The notes beneath the pieces are model-generated. The model worked only from the letters and a program-made list of their open reading frames with translations, made no database searches and was not told the origin of the DNA. Source: an uncultured Lachnospiraceae bacterium (GTDB lineage Bacteria; Bacillota; Clostridia; Lachnospirales; Lachnospiraceae). From it: a DNA stretch of 33,305 nt. Location: NCBI GenBank assembly GCA_947382625.1, contig CANDAG010000040.1:1-33305 (forward strand), in the 5' to 3' direction. Position 1 is the first letter of the stretch. Every line of letters starts with the position of its first letter. Shown here in pieces: positions 6,941-31,252 of this stretch. Position numbers and translations under genes: made by a program.

Positions 6941-7957
6941 TTATACGTTGCTCTCCTTCCGAAATGTCTCTAACGCTTCAAATGCTTTTCCTGAATCAAT
7001 CAGCTCTCCGGCTAACGCCACCCCTTCAGCCATAGAGCCTGCCTTATCCGCAATATAAAGAGCCGCACCGGCATTTAAAAGCACCGCATTTCTCTTAGGT
7101 CCCTTTTCTCCCTTTAATATAGAAACTGTGATCGCTGCATTTTCCGCTGGCGTTCCACCCACCAGCTCCTCCTTCCTGCATCTTTCCAGTCCGAAATCCT
7201 CCGGGGAAACAGTGTAAGTGTTGTATTTTCCCTGACGAAATTCGCAGATAAGCGTAGGTGCACTGGCTGAAATCTCATCCATTTTATCCATACCATAAAC
7301 TACCATACCGTTTTTCACCCCCAGACTGGTAAGCACCTTCGCAAGGGGCTCCACCAGGGATTCATCATAGACTCCAAGAAGCTGCCTTTCCGGAGATGCA
7401 GGGTTGGTAAGAGGCCCCAAAATATTGAATACCGTACGGATCCCCAGTTCCTTCCTGATAGAACCAACATATTTCATGGAGGTGTGATATTTCTGGGCAA
7501 AGAAAAAACAAATGCCGGCCCTCTTCAGCAGCTCCACACATTTTTCGGGAGACTGGTCTATATTGACTCCCAGAGCCTCAAGGCAATCCGCGGTTCCGCA
7601 TTTGGAGGAAGCCGCCCGGTTGCCATGCTTGGCCACTTTAACGCCGCCGGCTGCCGCCACCAGCGCCGAGGTTGTGGAAATATTAAAGCTCTGCGCACCA
7701 TCTCCCCCGGTTCCCACAATTTCGAGAACCTCCATATCGTGAGGCACCTTTATAGCATGATCCCGCATAGCGGCAGCACAACCTGCGATCCCCTGAATCG
7801 TTTCCGCCTTTGTGCTCTTGGTGGAGAGCGCTGCCAGAAAAGCGGCGTTCTGTGTAGGAGTGGTTTCGCCGCTCATAATTTCGTTGATCACAGCATAAGC
7901 CTCATCGTAAGTCAGGTCCTGTTTGTCTACAATTTTGACGATTGCTTCTTTTATCAT
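6941..7957 (-). CDS. trpD: Anthranilate phosphoribosyltransferase
   Basis: Transfers the phosphoribosyl group of PRPP to anthranilate. The 338 residues show the class's GTGGDG (82-87) pyrophosphate loop, [23 protein letters not shown] and [11 protein letters not shown]. It is the first coding gene of the operon; GGAGAGG precedes its ATG, and the T-box leader ends only about 70 bases upstream. There is no trpE or trpG between leader and gene, so anthranilate must come from genes elsewhere or from outside the cell. Confidence 0.97.
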
Positions 7958-8027
7958 CTCTCTATCCTCTCCTTTATGTGTTTAAAATCAATTAACTGTT
8001 CATTTACACTTACACGGGTCTGCGCAT

Positions 8028-8319
8028 AAAAAAAGTCCCTGACAGAAAAATCTGTCAAGGACGAATAATAGCTTTATCCGCGGTGCCACCTTGATTTACA
8101 GCCTGCGCTGTACACTTAACGAGATACCTGCATATCCCCGGCAACTGACGTATGCCCTACGTTGCAGGATACTTGGCAGAACTTATGATCTGCCTTTCAC
8201 TGCACCCTCAGCGGTCCATTTGATGACTTGTTTTCCACCCGTTCTCAGCAATCCGGGCTCTCTGTGGGAGCATCATCACCTTTATCTCCGCCTCAACGGT
8301 TTAGATGATATAAATAATT
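8028..8319 (-). promoter_or_regulatory. T-box riboswitch, tryptophan-specific, controlling the trp operon
   Basis: Minus-strand leader RNA. A stem I with AGAGAGCC and GCUGAGA-type distal motifs is followed by the specifier region AAAUGGACCGCUGAG, whose UGG (8218-8216) is the Trp codon. The T-box bulge sequence AAGGUGGCACCGCGG ends near 8078. UCAAGG can pair with CCUUGA to make the antiterminator; the alternative is an 11-bp terminator (8035-8045 with 8052-8062) followed by seven Us (8028-8034). Uncharged tRNA-Trp is therefore expected to allow transcription into trpD. Confidence 0.95.
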
Positions 8320-8325
8320 TTTAAC

Positions 8326-8354
8326 ATCATACCCCCTGAAAAAAGAATTGTCAA
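8326..8354 (-). promoter_or_regulatory. Promoter of the trp operon
   Basis: On the minus strand TTGACA (8349-8354), 17 bp, TATGAT (8326-8331). The start near 8319 fits the 5' end of the T-box leader. Confidence 0.85.
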
Positions 8355-8385
8355 TTAATATCTGTTCAAACCCCGATTTTTTTTA

Positions 8386-8391
8386 TATAAT
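8386..8391 (+). promoter_or_regulatory. -10 box of the dehydrogenase/SAH-recycling transcript
   Basis: TATAAT preceded by a run of Ts; the best -35 at 17-bp spacing is the weak TGTTCA (8363-8368). The promoter is divergent from, and close to, the trp promoter. Confidence 0.5.
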
Positions 8392-8428
8392 GATAAAAGA
8401 TTGTACGATATTTTTAAGGAGGAATCTG

Positions 8429-9385
8429 ATGAAAATAGTTGTTTTGGAACGAAACAGCGTAGGACTGGATGTTTCTGTCGACGGGATTGCCGCACTTGGC
8501 GACGTTACAATATATCCGAATACCACCGCCGCCGATGTAAAAGAAAAGATCACCGATGCGGACATTATTGTCGCCAACAAAGCCCCCCTGAATGAGGAAA
8601 CCCTGAAGGATGCTCCTAATGTAAAGCTGATCTGTGAATTTGCCACAGGCTATGACAACATTGACCTTTCCTATTGCCAAAGCCGTGGGATCAAGGTTGC
8701 CAATGTAGTCAACTATTCTACAGATGCGGTAGCACAGCATACCTTTGCCCTCTGTTTTTATGTTCTCGAAAAGCTCCGTCACTACGACGAATATGTGAAA
8801 TCCGGCGCCTATGCGGCCCAGGATCGTTTCTCAAATTTTGATATCCCTTTTACAGAGCTTGCAGGAAAAACCTGGGGCATTGTGGGAATGGGGAATATCG
8901 GGAGAAAGGTTGCCGCAATTGCCCGGGCCTTTGGCTGCAAGGTTATTTTTTATTCTGCCTCCGGTCAAAGCACCTGTACAGAATACGAGAGGGTAGATTT
9001 CGATACTCTCCTTAAGGAGTCCGATTTCCTGTCCCTCCATTGTCCGCTAAGCGACAAAACCAGAAATCTGATCGATCTGGATGCCCTTAAGAAAATGAAA
9101 AAAAGTGGAATCCTGATCAATGTGGCGAGAGGACCGGTGGTAAATGAAAATGATCTGTATACTGCCCTGACAGAAAATCTCATTGCAGGTGCCGGTCTTG
9201 ATGTAATAAGCGCCGAGCCCATCCGCAAGGATAATCCTTTGGGCAGCATTATGGACAGCAATAAACTGATCATTACTCCTCATCTTGCCTGGGCAAGTAT
9301 TGAAGCCCGAAACCGCTGTGTTTCAGAAACCTGCCTGAATATTGAAGCGTTTCTTAAGGGTGAAGACAGAAATATTGTGAATTAA
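8429..9385 (+). CDS. D-isomer-specific 2-hydroxyacid dehydrogenase (glycerate dehydrogenase-like)
   Basis: NAD(H)-dependent reduction of a 2-keto acid such as hydroxypyruvate, in the cytoplasm. Of 318 residues, the split catalytic domain surrounds a Rossmann domain with GMGNIG (153-158). The catalytic triad is Arg234 (NVARGPV), Glu263 (SAEPI) and His285 in TPHLAWAS, a context typical of glycerate dehydrogenase/hydroxypyruvate reductase rather than of D-lactate dehydrogenase; there is no C-terminal ACT domain as in long SerA forms. ATG 8429 follows AAGGAGG by five bases. Only 22 bases separate it from the deaminase gene, so the two are probably co-transcribed, though the metabolic link is unclear. 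Confidence 0.88.
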   Translation: MKIVVLERNSVGLDVSVDGIAALGDVTIYPNTTAADVKEKITDADIIVANKAPLNEETLKDAPNVKLICEFATGYDNIDLSYCQSRGIKVANVVNYSTDAVAQHTFALCFYVLEKLRHYDEYVKSGAYAAQDRFSNFDIPFTELAGKTWGIVGMGNIGRKVAAIARAFGCKVIFYSASGQSTCTEYERVDFDTLLKESDFLSLHCPLSDKTRNLIDLDALKKMKKSGILINVARGPVVNENDLYTALTENLIAGAGLDVISAEPIRKDNPLGSIMDSNKLIITPHLAWASIEARNRCVSETCLNIEAFLKGEDRNIVN

Positions 9386-9407
9386 CGAAACAGAAAGGAA
9401 CTGTTAA

Positions 9408-10751
9408 ATGGGAATCTTATTGCATAATATACTGGCTGTATTGCCGGCAGAGCCGGTATCATCGCGCCCTGCAGACCAGCCTTATCATCAAAAAAACATT
9501 GTAAAAGAAACTGACATTTATATTGAAGGCAATCGGATCATCGCCATCGGTAATGCGCCGGAAGGCTTTTCGGCCGATAAGGTGATCGACGGAAAGGACA
9601 GGCTTGCCATTCCGGGGCTTATCAATTGCCACACCCATTCTTATATGTCTTTTATGAGAAATGTGGCGGATGACTTAAGCTTTATGGACTGGCTTTTCGG
9701 AACCATCGATCCCATTGAACAGAAGATGACGGATGAAGATACCTATTGGGGCGCCTGCCTTGCCATCATTGAGATGATGAAGAGCGGAACCACCTGTTTT
9801 AACGATATGCAGATGAACATTCATCAGACCACCCGGGCCGTGAAAGAATCCGGCATGCGTGCCGTTATTTCCCGGGGACTGGTGGGGAGTGGAAACGATG
9901 AGGGAGGTCAGGAACGGCTCAGACAGGCTTATGAGGAAAGAGACGCCGCCAAAGACTGTGACCGGCTTACCTTTATGTTAGGCCCCCACGCCCCTTACAC
10001 CTGTGATGATGCCTATATGCGCATTGTATCTGAGGAAGCCCAAAAGAATCATATGGGAATCCATGTCCATCTTTCGGAAAGTGAAAGTGAGATCCAGCAG
10101 ATCAAAGAAAAATACGGGATCTCCCCTATCGAAATGGCAGACCGGAACGGTCTGTTTGACGTGCCGGCTATCGCCGCCCACTGTGTACAGATCACCGACA
10201 GCGATATGGACATCCTGAAAAGCAAAAATGTCAGCGTTGTGACCAATCCTGCCAGCAACATGAAGCTTGGAAACGGCTTTGCGCCTGTTCCCGCCATGAT
10301 GGCAAAGGGCATCAATGTCTGCCTTGGCACCGATGGTGCGGCCAGCAATAACAGCCTTAATATGTTCCATGAGCTGAACCTTCTGGCTCTGATCCACAAG
10401 GGTGTAAGGAAAACACCCCAGTGCATCAGCGCAGGGGATGTCTTCCGGATCGCAACCATAAACGGCGCAAGAGCATTGGGACTTGAGACTGAAATCGGCT
10501 CCTTGGAAGAAGGGAAAAAGGCGGATATCGCTATCCTTAACTTAAATACCCCTTCTCTTACCCCCAGAAATAATCTGATCGCCGGACTTTCTTACTCTGC
10601 TAACGGCTCTGAGGTTGAAACCGTTATTATCGATGGGAAGGTAACCATGGAAAACAGAAAGGTCCTGACCATGGACGAGGAACTGGTATATCAAAAGGTA
10701 AACGAGATCATAGCCCGCATGGATATTTCCTTTGAGGGTGTTGATGCATAA
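9408..10751 (+). CDS. mtaD: SAH / 5'-methylthioadenosine / 5'-deoxyadenosine deaminase (amidohydrolase)
   Basis: Deaminates the adenine ring of SAH, MTA or 5'-deoxyadenosine to the inosyl product. The 447-residue metal-dependent amidohydrolase has PGLINCHTHSYM with the HxH pair (75, 77), GPHAPYTC (His194), HVHLSE (219-224), AAHC (His258) and GTDGAASNN (Asp309). These are the features of the Thermotoga Tm0936 / Methanocaldococcus DadD group. A stretch near residues 14-30 looks like a small insertion in the N-terminal sandwich domain. The next gene is SAH hydrolase, which supports a path SAH to S-inosylhomocysteine to inosine plus homocysteine. An alternative is general salvage of 5'-deoxyadenosine from radical-SAM enzymes. 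Confidence 0.9.
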   Translation: MGILLHNILAVLPAEPVSSRPADQPYHQKNIVKETDIYIEGNRIIAIGNAPEGFSADKVIDGKDRLAIPGLINCHTHSYMSFMRNVADDLSFMDWLFGTIDPIEQKMTDEDTYWGACLAIIEMMKSGTTCFNDMQMNIHQTTRAVKESGMRAVISRGLVGSGNDEGGQERLRQAYEERDAAKDCDRLTFMLGPHAPYTCDDAYMRIVSEEAQKNHMGIHVHLSESESEIQQIKEKYGISPIEMADRNGLFDVPAIAAHCVQITDSDMDILKSKNVSVVTNPASNMKLGNGFAPVPAMMAKGINVCLGTDGAASNNSLNMFHELNLLALIHKGVRKTPQCISAGDVFRIATINGARALGLETEIGSLEEGKKADIAILNLNTPSLTPRNNLIAGLSYSANGSEVETVIIDGKVTMENRKVLTMDEELVYQKVNEIIARMDISFEGVDA

Positions 10752-10801
10752 AATTACGTGAAACAAAATGCTGCCAGAGCAGCGGAATGTGAGGTTAAAA
10801 A

Positions 10802-12049
10802 ATGAACAGCGAGATCAGGGACATTAATTTGTCCGAATCAGGAGAAAGAAAAATTGAATGGGTGAAGAGAAATTGTGACCTTCTTCGTACCCTGGAAACA
10901 GAATTTGAACAGTCCAAGCCCTTTGCCGGCAAAAAGATTGCCCTTTCTGTTCATCTGGAGGCCAAGACTGCTTATCTTTGCCTTGTGCTGAAGGCTGGCG
11001 GTGCGCAGATGTTTGTCACCGGCTCCAATCCTTTATCCACCCAGGATGATGTGGCCGCCGCGCTGGTCAAGGCCGGTCTCGAGGTACATGCATGGTATAA
11101 CTGTACCCCGGAAGAATATGAATCCCATATCCGTCACGTACTTGAGGCAGGCCCCAACATCATCATTGATGACGGCGGTGACCTGGTAAATATGGTCCAC
11201 ACACAGATGCCCGAATTGATTCCTGCCATTATCGGCGGCTGCGAAGAAACTACTACCGGAATCATCCGTCTGGAAGCCATGAACCGGGCAGGTGAGTTAA
11301 AATTCCCTATGGTACGGGTAAACAATGCAGACTGCAAGCATCTCTTTGACAACCGCTACGGCACCGGCCAATCTGTATGGGATGGTATCAACCGTACAAC
11401 AAATCTGATCGTTGCCGGTAAGATCGTAGTAGTTGCCGGTTATGGATGGTGCGGTAAAGGAACAGCCATGCGTGCCAAAGGACTTGGCGCAAGAGTTATC
11501 GTCACAGAGATCGATCCCATTAAGGCCATAGAAGCTGTTATGGACGGATTTGATGTAATGCCCATGAACGAGGCCGCTAAAGTAGGTGATTTCTTTGTAA
11601 CCGTAACCGGATGCGATAAGGTAATCGATGAAGAAGATTTTAAAGTAATGAAGGATGGAGCAATCCTCTGTAATGCCGGTCATTTTGACTGTGAGATCGA
11701 TATGGCGCGGCTTCGTGAAATCGCTTTGGAAACCAGGGAGCAAAGAAAAAATATTATGGGTTACAAGCTCCCCAGCGGCCAGTGGATCTTTGTTCTTGCA
11801 GAGGGCAGACTCGTAAATCTTGCCGCCGGCGACGGCCATCCGGCAGAGATCATGGATATGAGCTTCGCCATTCAGGCCCTGTCCGCAAAATATCTGGTAG
11901 AGCACGGAAGCGAGCTCACAGAAAAACTGATCGACGTTCCCAGGGAAGTAGACCATGATGTAGCCAGGAGAAAGCTGGCCTTCCTTGGCAAAGAAATCGA
12001 TGTTCTCACCCCCGAGCAGGAAAAGTACTTAAACAGCTATACACTGTAA
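10802..12049 (+). CDS. ahcY: Adenosylhomocysteinase, archaeal/Thermotoga type, possibly S-inosylhomocysteine hydrolase
   Basis: Hydrolyses SAH, or its deaminated form, to a nucleoside and homocysteine using bound NAD. The 415 residues include DDGGDLVN (123-130), EETTTG (148-153), the catalytic Lys179 and Asp183-Asn184, the NAD loop GYGWCGKG (213-220), GHFDCEID (His294) and EGRLVNL with GHP (His346). STQDDVAAAL and the shortened C-terminus, which ends without the Lys/Tyr tail of mammalian enzymes, mark the archaeal type. The segment HLEAKTA (51-57) replaces human HMTVETA, so the adenine-contacting Glu59 is Lys55 here. With a deaminase directly upstream, an inosyl substrate is plausible. GAGG precedes the ATG; 50 bases separate it from the deaminase gene. 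Confidence 0.93.
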   Translation: MNSEIRDINLSESGERKIEWVKRNCDLLRTLETEFEQSKPFAGKKIALSVHLEAKTAYLCLVLKAGGAQMFVTGSNPLSTQDDVAAALVKAGLEVHAWYNCTPEEYESHIRHVLEAGPNIIIDDGGDLVNMVHTQMPELIPAIIGGCEETTTGIIRLEAMNRAGELKFPMVRVNNADCKHLFDNRYGTGQSVWDGINRTTNLIVAGKIVVVAGYGWCGKGTAMRAKGLGARVIVTEIDPIKAIEAVMDGFDVMPMNEAAKVGDFFVTVTGCDKVIDEEDFKVMKDGAILCNAGHFDCEIDMARLREIALETREQRKNIMGYKLPSGQWIFVLAEGRLVNLAAGDGHPAEIMDMSFAIQALSAKYLVEHGSELTEKLIDVPREVDHDVARRKLAFLGKEIDVLTPEQEKYLNSYTL

Positions 12050-12068
12050 TTACCCATTTCAAAACAAC

Positions 12069-12093
12069 GGATAACACGCCCTGCGAGTTATCC
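12069..12093 (+). repeat. Hairpin between ahcY and the PRTase gene, possible fourth member of the palindromic repeat
   Basis: GGATAAC (12069-12075) pairs with GTTATCC (12087-12093) around ACGCCCTGCGA, followed by TTATG. Copies A-C have the same plan: a stem, ACGC-NNN-GCGA, the opposite stem, then TTAT. Here the outer stem has a different sequence that still pairs. There is no T run, so it is not a plain terminator. Confidence 0.45.
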
Positions 12094-12121
12094 TTATGTT
12101 AATCAAAAGGAGGTATTTTCT

Positions 12122-12763
12122 ATGCAAGAAGCTATTAAGATCAGATCCAAACGCCACCCTGATGTAGTTTTGCACACCATTCCGGGGCACTTTGTGACAC
12201 CCAACTCCCATGTAAATTATTTTCTGGATATGACCACATTAAAGTCCAGACTCAGCGAGGCTTCCGCTGCCGCAAAGGCTCTCAGCGAGCATATATCGGC
12301 GACCACCATTGTAGATACTATTGTCTGCATTGAAGGCTGTGAGATCATTGGAGCACTTCTGGCAGAGGAGCTCACCAAAGCAGGAATTTATTCCATGAAT
12401 TCTCACAAGACTATCTATATCGTGACTCCCGAATATGTAAATTCAGGTCAGCTTGTTATCAGAGAGAATATGCTCCCTATGATCAAGGGTAAGAATGTAC
12501 TTCTGCTTCTGGCATCTGCTACTACCGGACAGACTATTGTAAAAGCAAGCCGTGCTCTTACCTACTACGGAGCCAAGATCAGCGGTATCAGCGCTGTTTT
12601 CAGTGCTGCCAACAGTCTGATGGGTATCCCGATCAATGCCTTGTTTACTATCGCAGACATTCCTGATTACAGGACCTACGAACCGGAAGGATGTACCCTG
12701 TGTAAAGAAAACAAGCCAATCGATGCCTTTGCAAACGGATTTGGGTATTCTAAGATCAATTAG
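12122..12763 (+). CDS. Phosphoribosyltransferase-fold protein, PyrE-like, with altered PRPP motif
   Basis: 213 residues with a type I phosphoribosyltransferase layout. The PRPP loop region is LLLASATTGQT: the TTGxT half is kept (134-138), but the two acidic residues normally four and three places before it are Leu130 and Ala131. The C-terminus has CTLCKENKPIDA (191-202), resembling the CPLC end of many orotate phosphoribosyltransferases. An AAAGGAGG ribosome site precedes ATG 12122. It is the last gene of the SAH-recycling transcript, before repeat C and a strong terminator. The substrate is unknown; it could salvage a purine from SAH breakdown, or bind a nucleotide as a regulator without catalysis. 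It should not be taken as a second pyrE. Confidence 0.75.
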   Translation: MQEAIKIRSKRHPDVVLHTIPGHFVTPNSHVNYFLDMTTLKSRLSEASAAAKALSEHISATTIVDTIVCIEGCEIIGALLAEELTKAGIYSMNSHKTIYIVTPEYVNSGQLVIRENMLPMIKGKNVLLLLASATTGQTIVKASRALTYYGAKISGISAVFSAANSLMGIPINALFTIADIPDYRTYEPEGCTLCKENKPIDAFANGFGYSKIN

Positions 12764-12804: not shown

Positions 12805-12842
12805 AGATGGCGAATGTGAAAACACATTCGCCATCTGTTTTT
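12805..12842 (+). terminator. Strong terminator between converging transcripts
   Basis: A perfect 14-bp stem, AGATGGCGAATGTG (12805-12818) with its complement (12823-12836), a 4-nt loop, then GTTTTT. On the minus strand the stem is followed by CTTTGTTT, so it may also end the rubredoxin transcript. Confidence 0.9.
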
Positions 12843-30727: not shown

Positions 30728-31252
30728 ATGGCTGAAACAATTAAAGAACTATTTTCAGAGGAGACAGTAGATGCCAGGATCAGAGAACTGGGCGAGCAGA
30801 TCAGCAAAGATTACGCCGGCAAGGAGGTGCATCTGATCTGTGTTCTCAAGGGCGGCAGCTTTTTTATGTGCGAGCTGGCAAAGAGGATCACCGTACCGGT
30901 CTACCTGGACTTTATGTCGGTCTCCAGCTACGGAAGCGAAACCACATCCAGCGGCGTTGTAAAGATCGTCAAGGATCTGGATTCTCCTCTTAAAGGAAAA
31001 GACGTGATCGTGGTAGAGGATATTGTAGATACCGGTCATACCTTAAGCTACCTTTTAGGAATGCTTCAGAGCAGAGAACCTGCAAGTCTCAGGCTCTGTA
31101 CCCTGTTAGACAAACCTGACCGCCGGGTAGCGGAGGTTCCCGTAGACTATATCGGCTTTACCATCCCCGACAAATTTATTGTAGGATACGGTCTGGATTA
31201 TGATCAAAAATACAGAAATCTTCCCTATATCGGAACGGTAGAATTCGAATAG
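30728..31252 (+). CDS. hpt: Hypoxanthine phosphoribosyltransferase
   Basis: Converts hypoxanthine (and guanine) to IMP (GMP) with PRPP. 174 residues with CVLKGGSFF (38-46), the region SVSSYGSETTSSG and the complete PRPP motif VIVVEDIVDTGHT (93-105), including the two acidic residues missing from the PRTase-fold protein at 12122. LLDKPDRR and FIVGYGLDYDQKYRNLPYIG are the C-terminal family motifs. Start ATG 30728 with AAAGGAG upstream; 29 bases after tilS. The tilS-hpt-ftsH order is the Bacillus one. It could salvage the base from inosine produced by SAH recycling. Confidence 0.96.
   Translation: MAETIKELFSEETVDARIRELGEQISKDYAGKEVHLICVLKGGSFFMCELAKRITVPVYLDFMSVSSYGSETTSSGVVKIVKDLDSPLKGKDVIVVEDIVDTGHTLSYLLGMLQSREPASLRLCTLLDKPDRRVAEVPVDYIGFTIPDKFIVGYGLDYDQKYRNLPYIGTVEFE

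Follow-up and report, generated by a model that had tools for sequence, protein, structure and literature searches.

The 33,305-nucleotide stretch of DNA analyzed here (the window) is one entire contig (CANDAG010000040.1) of GenBank assembly GCA_947382625.1, a genome of 4.18 Mb (113 contigs, 88% complete), from an uncultured gut member of the Lachnospiraceae that probably belongs to the genus Parablautia. It carries four consecutive open reading frames (ORFs) on the forward strand, which encode, in this order, a D-2-hydroxyacid dehydrogenase (DH), a deaminase of the amidohydrolase superfamily (DAD1), an archaeal-type S-adenosyl/S-inosylhomocysteine hydrolase (SAHH) and a protein with a phosphoribosyltransferase (PRTase) fold (PRT), and which are separated by gaps of 22, 50 and 72 bases (Table 1). 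A preliminary description made from the sequence had already given this layout and these gene identities; all ORFs were found at the positions reported there, and family searches agreed with the identities, the fold of PRT being supported by a structure model although its Pfam score was below the cut-off. The two central genes form a candidate pair for the recycling of S-adenosylhomocysteine (SAH) and are the main subject of the following analysis, for which gene maps were drawn with a simple longest-ORF caller.

Table 1. Genes and signals of the SAH-recycling locus and the separate HPRT gene in the window
Feature	Positions	Strand	Basis
TATAAT, possible -10 element 5' of DH, no good -35 box	8386..8391	+	spotted by eye; absent from promoter-scan list
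D-2-hydroxyacid dehydrogenase (DH), 318 aa, ATG preceded by AAGGAGG	8429..9385	+	NCBIfam NF006263
SAH/methylthioadenosine/5'-deoxyadenosine-type deaminase (DAD1), amidohydrolase superfamily, 447 aa	9408..10751	+	Pfam Amidohydro_1; solved relatives; conserved residues
Archaeal-type S-adenosyl/S-inosylhomocysteine hydrolase (SAHH), 415 aa, motif HLEAK	10802..12049	+	NF004005; solved relatives
PRTase-fold protein (PRT), non-acidic phosphoribosyl pyrophosphate (PRPP) loop LLLLASATTGQT, C-terminal CxxC	12122..12763	+	structure model; alignments; weak profile matches
14-pair hairpin, intrinsic-terminator-like	12805..12836	. (listed on both strands)	hairpin scan
Hypoxanthine phosphoribosyltransferase (HPRT), outside the operon	30749..31243	+	TIGR01203, 223.2 bits (cut-off 150)

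In the family-model search SAHH matched NF004005 with 657.8 bits, and its best relatives of solved structure were 7r37 and 7r3a, followed by 5tov and 3x2e, which we take to be the SAHH of Thermotoga maritima. The alignments with these four chains were nearly end-to-end, with no 40-residue catalytic-domain segment and a short C-terminus, and the HLEAK motif of the window protein aligned with HLEMK in 7r37 and with HLEAK in 7r3a as well as in 5tov/3x2e. According to a study that includes the enzymes of Pyrococcus furiosus (7r37) and M. maripaludis (7r3a), HxExK homologues prefer S-inosylhomocysteine (SIH), whereas HxTxE(Q) enzymes prefer SAH (PMC10978960). When 150 genomes of the family were searched, 33 contained an SAHH (more than 500 bits), and HLEAK was present in 32 of these 33 proteins, the last one lacking that stretch in the ORF that was taken. 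Similarly, an SAHH was labelled in 54 of 80 DAD1 loci from named relatives, and all 53 proteins that scored above 300 bits have HLEAK.

The deaminase matched Pfam Amidohydro_1, and its best solved relatives were 4f0r, a methylthioadenosine/SAH deaminase, and TM0936, a deaminase of T. maritima. Five positions of TM0936 that we take to be its metal ligands (H55, H57, H200, H228 and D279) were kept in 80 of 80 relatives of DAD1, and so was the equivalent of R136, presumably one of two arginines (R136 and R148) at the substrate site. Given the HLEAK fingerprint of SAHH together with the metal ligands and this arginine of DAD1, a recycling route through SIH is well supported as a prediction from sequence. 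Both genes are also linked in relatives: in 13 of the 33 family loci no more than about 4 kb separates DAD1 from SAHH, the two being on opposite strands at one of these loci, and the pair is likewise close together in the 54 named loci mentioned above. The named relatives with DAD1 include Parablautia muri and P. intestinalis, whose hydrolases are 96% and 95% identical to that of the window. DAD1 itself (at least 380 bits) was found in 15 of 33 genomes with SAHH versus 1 of 117 genomes without it, and either DAD1 or its paralogue (E <=1e-60) in 33 of 33 versus 32 of 117. The HxExK motif, the lack of a detected luxS and this proximity are all in keeping with the earlier proposal that the pair follows the logic of the SIH route of Methanocaldococcus jannaschii.

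Across the 150 family genomes, luxS was present in 108 and SAHH in 33, with both genes in only one genome and neither in 10, while methylthioadenosine/SAH nucleosidase (MTAN, Pfs) scored above its cut-off in 7 of the 33 SAHH genomes versus 101 of the 117 others; the Fisher p values for comparisons within the family ignore shared descent. A corresponding picture was obtained for the window's own genus, in which 31 of 37 genomes contain SAHH and luxS occurs once, in a genome without SAHH. The search of the own genome for both genes, as suggested in the preliminary description, detected no luxS, an absence that is not certain because the genome is 88% complete, and its top pfs/MTAN match (E 2.7e-7) was not among the matches above the family cut-off. 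By these distributions, the DAD1-SAHH pair stands in for LuxS in the family. Mutual exclusion of the Pfs/LuxS and SAHH routes was known before, and a 2004 survey of 138 genomes recorded Pfs/LuxS in all Firmicutes surveyed (PMC524169).

The pair had originally been regarded as unusual for Firmicutes, a view that did not hold. When the phylum was searched with an exact DNA pattern for HLEAKT[AG][YF]L, the signature was detected in 132 of 398 genomes, corresponding to 92 of 267 genera, so that the notion of a rare HxExK hydrolase had to be rejected; a reversed-pattern control gave 0 among the rows listed. All 30 pattern loci listed were inside SAHH genes, including the window's own and one partial gene at a contig end. 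Among 40 phylum regions taken for the analysis of neighbourhoods, 39 had a callable SAHH, and in 9 of these 39 a deaminase of this type (DAD) was found within about 6 kb. A midpoint-rooted tree of the 33 family and 39 phylum proteins placed 31 of the 33 family proteins, together with one protein from another family, in one supported group. Since the remaining two (G013 and G058), both with HLEAK and an adjoining deaminase, stand apart from the other 31, the tree suggests that the family acquired SAHH on more than one occasion.

Taken together, we assign a probability of about 0.65 to the reading that the locus represents a deaminase-first SAH-recycling operon replacing Pfs/LuxS. DAD1 would deaminate SAH derived from methyltransferase reactions to SIH, which the NAD-dependent HxExK hydrolase would convert to homocysteine and inosine; a purine nucleoside phosphorylase (PNP) encoded on another contig of the genome (C66), in one run with a cytidine deaminase and a second deaminase (the DAD1 paralogue), could then release hypoxanthine, and HPRT could turn it into IMP. 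Gene content, motifs, distribution and linkage are direct observations, from which we infer the substrates, the direction of flux and co-transcription; homocysteine would presumably be returned to methionine. DAD1 would probably accept methylthioadenosine and 5'-deoxyadenosine as well.

Several observations weigh against this assignment. At the position equivalent to R148, the window protein and 74 of 80 relatives have Gln, and 6 have Arg. Among the 25 NCBIfam families listed of 56 matched, DAD1 exceeded the curated cut-off of none, and it remained below the equivalog cut-offs for methylthioadenosine/SAH deaminase (NF012037, 280 versus 779 bits) and 5'-deoxyadenosine deaminase (NF005557, 347 versus 522 bits). 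No SAHH was seen in 26 of the 80 named DAD1 loci, 30 of the 39 phylum loci showed no DAD at a distance of up to about 6 kb from the HLEAK hydrolase, some stretches in both sets stopping at contig edges, and 6 of 37 genus genomes have no SAHH. The main doubt comes from the 18 of 33 family SAHH genomes in which DAD1 is missing. The R136 equivalent was missing in all 18 paralogue copies examined (that of the own genome and the best copy from 17 of those 18 genomes, G034 being left out and G015 represented by its best copy only), and therefore the hydrolase in those genomes must act on SAH or obtain SIH otherwise.

These 18 genomes speak for the strongest competing explanation, direct hydrolysis, in which SAH would be the main substrate of the HLEAK enzyme in vivo, yielding adenosine and homocysteine, and adenosine, methylthioadenosine or 5'-deoxyadenosine would be the substrates of the deaminases. 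Of the 18 paralogue copies, 14 have a PNP gene nearby, which would suit a conversion of adenosine to inosine. Moreover, the enzymatic study reports that HxExK enzymes also cleave some SAH and that all enzymes tested had some SAH activity, although it ties HxExK to a preference for SIH (PMC10978960). However, the deaminase that adjoins SAHH is DAD1, with its R136 equivalent; in our interpretation DAD1 would be able to act on SAH and the paralogue would deaminate nucleosides, and we consider direct hydrolysis as the predominant reaction rather unlikely. An improbable alternative is that DAD1 serves mainly methylthioadenosine or 5'-deoxyadenosine produced by polyamine synthesis and radical-SAM (S-adenosylmethionine) reactions, with the adjacent SAHH contributing to a general disposal of by-products. 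Such a role would be consistent with the 9 phylum SAHH-DAD loci, 8 of which have a PNP/MtnP-like gene and 8 an MtnA-like gene (labels taken from a single locus, L338), and which resemble 5-deoxyribose salvage clusters as outlined in a previous report (PMC6079011). In contrast, when the MtnP, MtnA and class II aldolase of L338 were sought next to DAD1 in the 80 named loci (tblastn, E <=1e-8), none was found, and therefore the SAHH-adjacent DAD1 is not travelling with the salvage set in these loci.

Some variants of these genes were encountered in relatives. In one family genome (G039, L163:3467-4744) a DAD-like ORF forms a gene run together with luxS and pfs and has three metal-ligand histidines replaced by Asn, Asn and Tyr, suggesting a probable pseudoenzyme kept next to luxS. 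Six named loci (L224, L225, L226, L228, L229 and L231) carry an MTAN-like gene 3' of SAHH on the other strand, and the L224 copy was identified by Pfam as a phosphorylase-superfamily protein. In two genus genomes of 97% and 96% completeness (G166 and G167) neither SAHH (E <=1e-60) nor luxS was found.

The dehydrogenase had been left without an assigned role in the cluster, a description that now has to be modified, as DH recurs near SAH-recycling genes of both routes. It matched NF006263 with 391.9 bits (cut-off 389), a general family and the only one of 21 matched that was above its cut-off; its nearest solved chain was 5tx7, and it carries a GxGxxG motif as well as the R, E and H motifs that we take to hold the catalytic residues. 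Following the second strand, DH has Ser in place of the Asp that is usual in NAD enzymes, and this difference may mean that DH uses NADPH. DH (at least 290 bits) was detected in 76 family genomes, in 24 of them within 10 kb of an SAH-recycling gene and in 52 not, compared with a roughly estimated chance expectation of about 1 in 76. The 24 linked cases, counted by hand and not independent since the genomes are related, comprise 6 near SAHH (G000, G060, G112, G086, G107 and G100) and 18 near luxS and/or MTAN above cut-off; DH, luxS and pfs are consecutive on the same strand in three genomes (G064, G128 and G045), and regions L105-L121 were chosen because the linkage was visible. Likewise, DH was present in 48 of the 80 named DAD1 loci, and together with DAD and SAHH in 42. 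DH may thus serve SAH recycling by either route, or the linkage may be inherited synteny; old synteny could explain it because the genomes are related and DH often also adjoins pgi (glucose-6-phosphate isomerase) and murG.

We regard DH as a putative accessory 2-oxoacid reductase that recurs near the SAH-recycling genes of either route. A more speculative proposal, to which we give little weight, is that DH is a route-independent partner that stays in place while Pfs/LuxS is swapped for deaminase and SIH hydrolase, and that it would reduce 2-oxobutyrate, 4-methylthio-2-oxobutyrate or a similar 2-oxoacid derived from homocysteine or methionine; if so, DH would give the methyl cycle an overflow or redox valve. 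At loci with no DH 5' of DAD1, its place is taken by genes of about 715-746 and 372-381 aa (L209, L211, L236, L238 and L244, and the genus loci L196, L197, L198, L200, L202 and L204), which in L209, the sole copy looked at, code for a lacto-N-biose phosphorylase and for an APH-type kinase.

PRT reached 22.0 bits in Pfam, compared to a gathering cut-off of 26.3, and gave weak profile matches to orotate PRTases. Its predicted model (pLDDT 91.7) matched adenine and orotate PRTases in Foldseek searches, with query TM-scores of 0.55 to 5zgo and 0.63 to 4paw, and on the basis of this model PRT is assigned the PRTase fold. Class I PRTases have an acidic pair in the PRPP-binding loop. An acidic pair was present in 0 of 48 aligned members of the PRT family and one acid in 7 of 48, and TTG was kept in 40 of 48; all 83 sequences compared, a set that contains some duplicates of the same gene, have a CxxC close to the C-terminus. 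A function of PRT as the hypoxanthine salvage enzyme was rejected because the window holds a normal HPRT and the PRT family lacks the acidic PRPP pair.

The preliminary description had also placed PRT in the SAH-recycling cluster, but its distribution does not support a part in the pathway. PRT occurs in 75 of the 150 family genomes (L079 and L096 are example loci), in 20 of 33 with SAHH versus 55 of 117 without (Fisher p 0.24, shared descent ignored), and adjoins SAHH in 0 of the 32 other family SAHH loci, whereas within the genus 25 of 37 genomes contain PRT and in 22 of these 25 it lies, by coordinates, no more than 3 kb from SAHH. DAD and SAHH precede PRT in 19 of 20 genus loci, and 7 of these loci have an inserted gene before PRT, which measures 574-605 aa in 6 cases and 244 aa in the other; DH is in front in 13 of the 19. 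The four-gene order to be looked for in relatives was therefore found in part of the genus, and all four genes lie in the stretch at 13 of 80 named loci, but other family loci do not share it, and a family-wide four-gene operon was rejected. That the four genes form one conserved pathway with PRT and DH as dedicated steps is, despite their order in the genus, very improbable in view of the independence of PRT from SAHH across the family, a SAHH-PRT gap in genus loci that can be as short as 23 bases or hold a whole inserted gene, and the lack of DH in 6 of the 19 loci. PRT is a separate family-wide gene that is kept behind SAHH in this genus but does not belong to the pathway in the family as a whole. 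The large inserted gene encodes a chemotaxis-receptor-like protein in the copy examined (L209). In some loci PRT is located 3' of two genes of about 175 and 340 aa, which, as a guess from size and weak matches, may be ilvN and ilvC.

With respect to transcription, the hairpin downstream of PRT closes the four-gene run, and the convergent gene may use it too. A strong, terminator-like hairpin is thus present at the end of the proposed single transcript, but no strong promoter 5' of DH was listed by the promoter scan, which in that region gave a single forward-strand site (8321-8348, 9 of 12 matches) and 13 sites in all, compared to 11.0 expected by chance. It is plausible that the four genes lie on one transcript. 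A search for a riboswitch 5' of the operon with Rfam at gathering thresholds yielded only a tRNA in the window, and a laxer scan of 7900-8450 yielded only a T-box leader on the opposite strand. This leader (8305-8054, reverse strand, 88.9 bits versus a cut-off of 93) precedes divergent trp genes.

Published descriptions of the SIH route concern some archaea and one thermophilic bacterium. As in the M. jannaschii route (DadD and SIHH, EC 3.13.1.9), the window combines a deaminase of the DadD/MtaD kind with an HxExK hydrolase, and no LuxS was found; in contrast, the window derives from a gut bacterium, and the two genes are adjacent with DH in front. The T. maritima enzymes, TM0936 and SAHH, share HLEAK, the metal site and the R136 equivalent, but differ in R148, which corresponds to Gln in the window. 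Similar to the Pfs/LuxS route, SAH would enter and homocysteine leave, and in some genomes a DH orthologue lies near the Pfs/LuxS genes, although that route yields the precursor of autoinducer-2 (AI-2), and the own genome showed no luxS and only a sub-cut-off pfs match. PRT resembles class I PRTases of the orotate/adenine type in its modelled fold and weak orotate PRTase profile matches, but differs from them in having no acidic PRPP pair and in its C-terminal CxxC. A literature search over titles and the beginnings of abstracts found nothing on the SIH route in Lachnospiraceae, and most subscription journals were outside its coverage, so that novelty is unproven. The locus makes sense as an operon whose type of pathway is known, with DH as a recurrent partner, although none of the searched papers describes the SIH route for this family and phylum.

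The enzyme pair itself is ordinary, and its value lies in its use as a test case. The gut family is split almost cleanly between genomes with LuxS and genomes with an HxExK hydrolase, the signature of which occurs in a third of the sampled phylum genomes. Since the system would be in place of Pfs/LuxS, no LuxS-dependent AI-2 is expected from the organism, and the distribution of the two routes predicts which gut Lachnospiraceae cannot make AI-2 in this way. Named strains, among them Parablautia muri and P. intestinalis, thereby offer a means of testing the SIH route.

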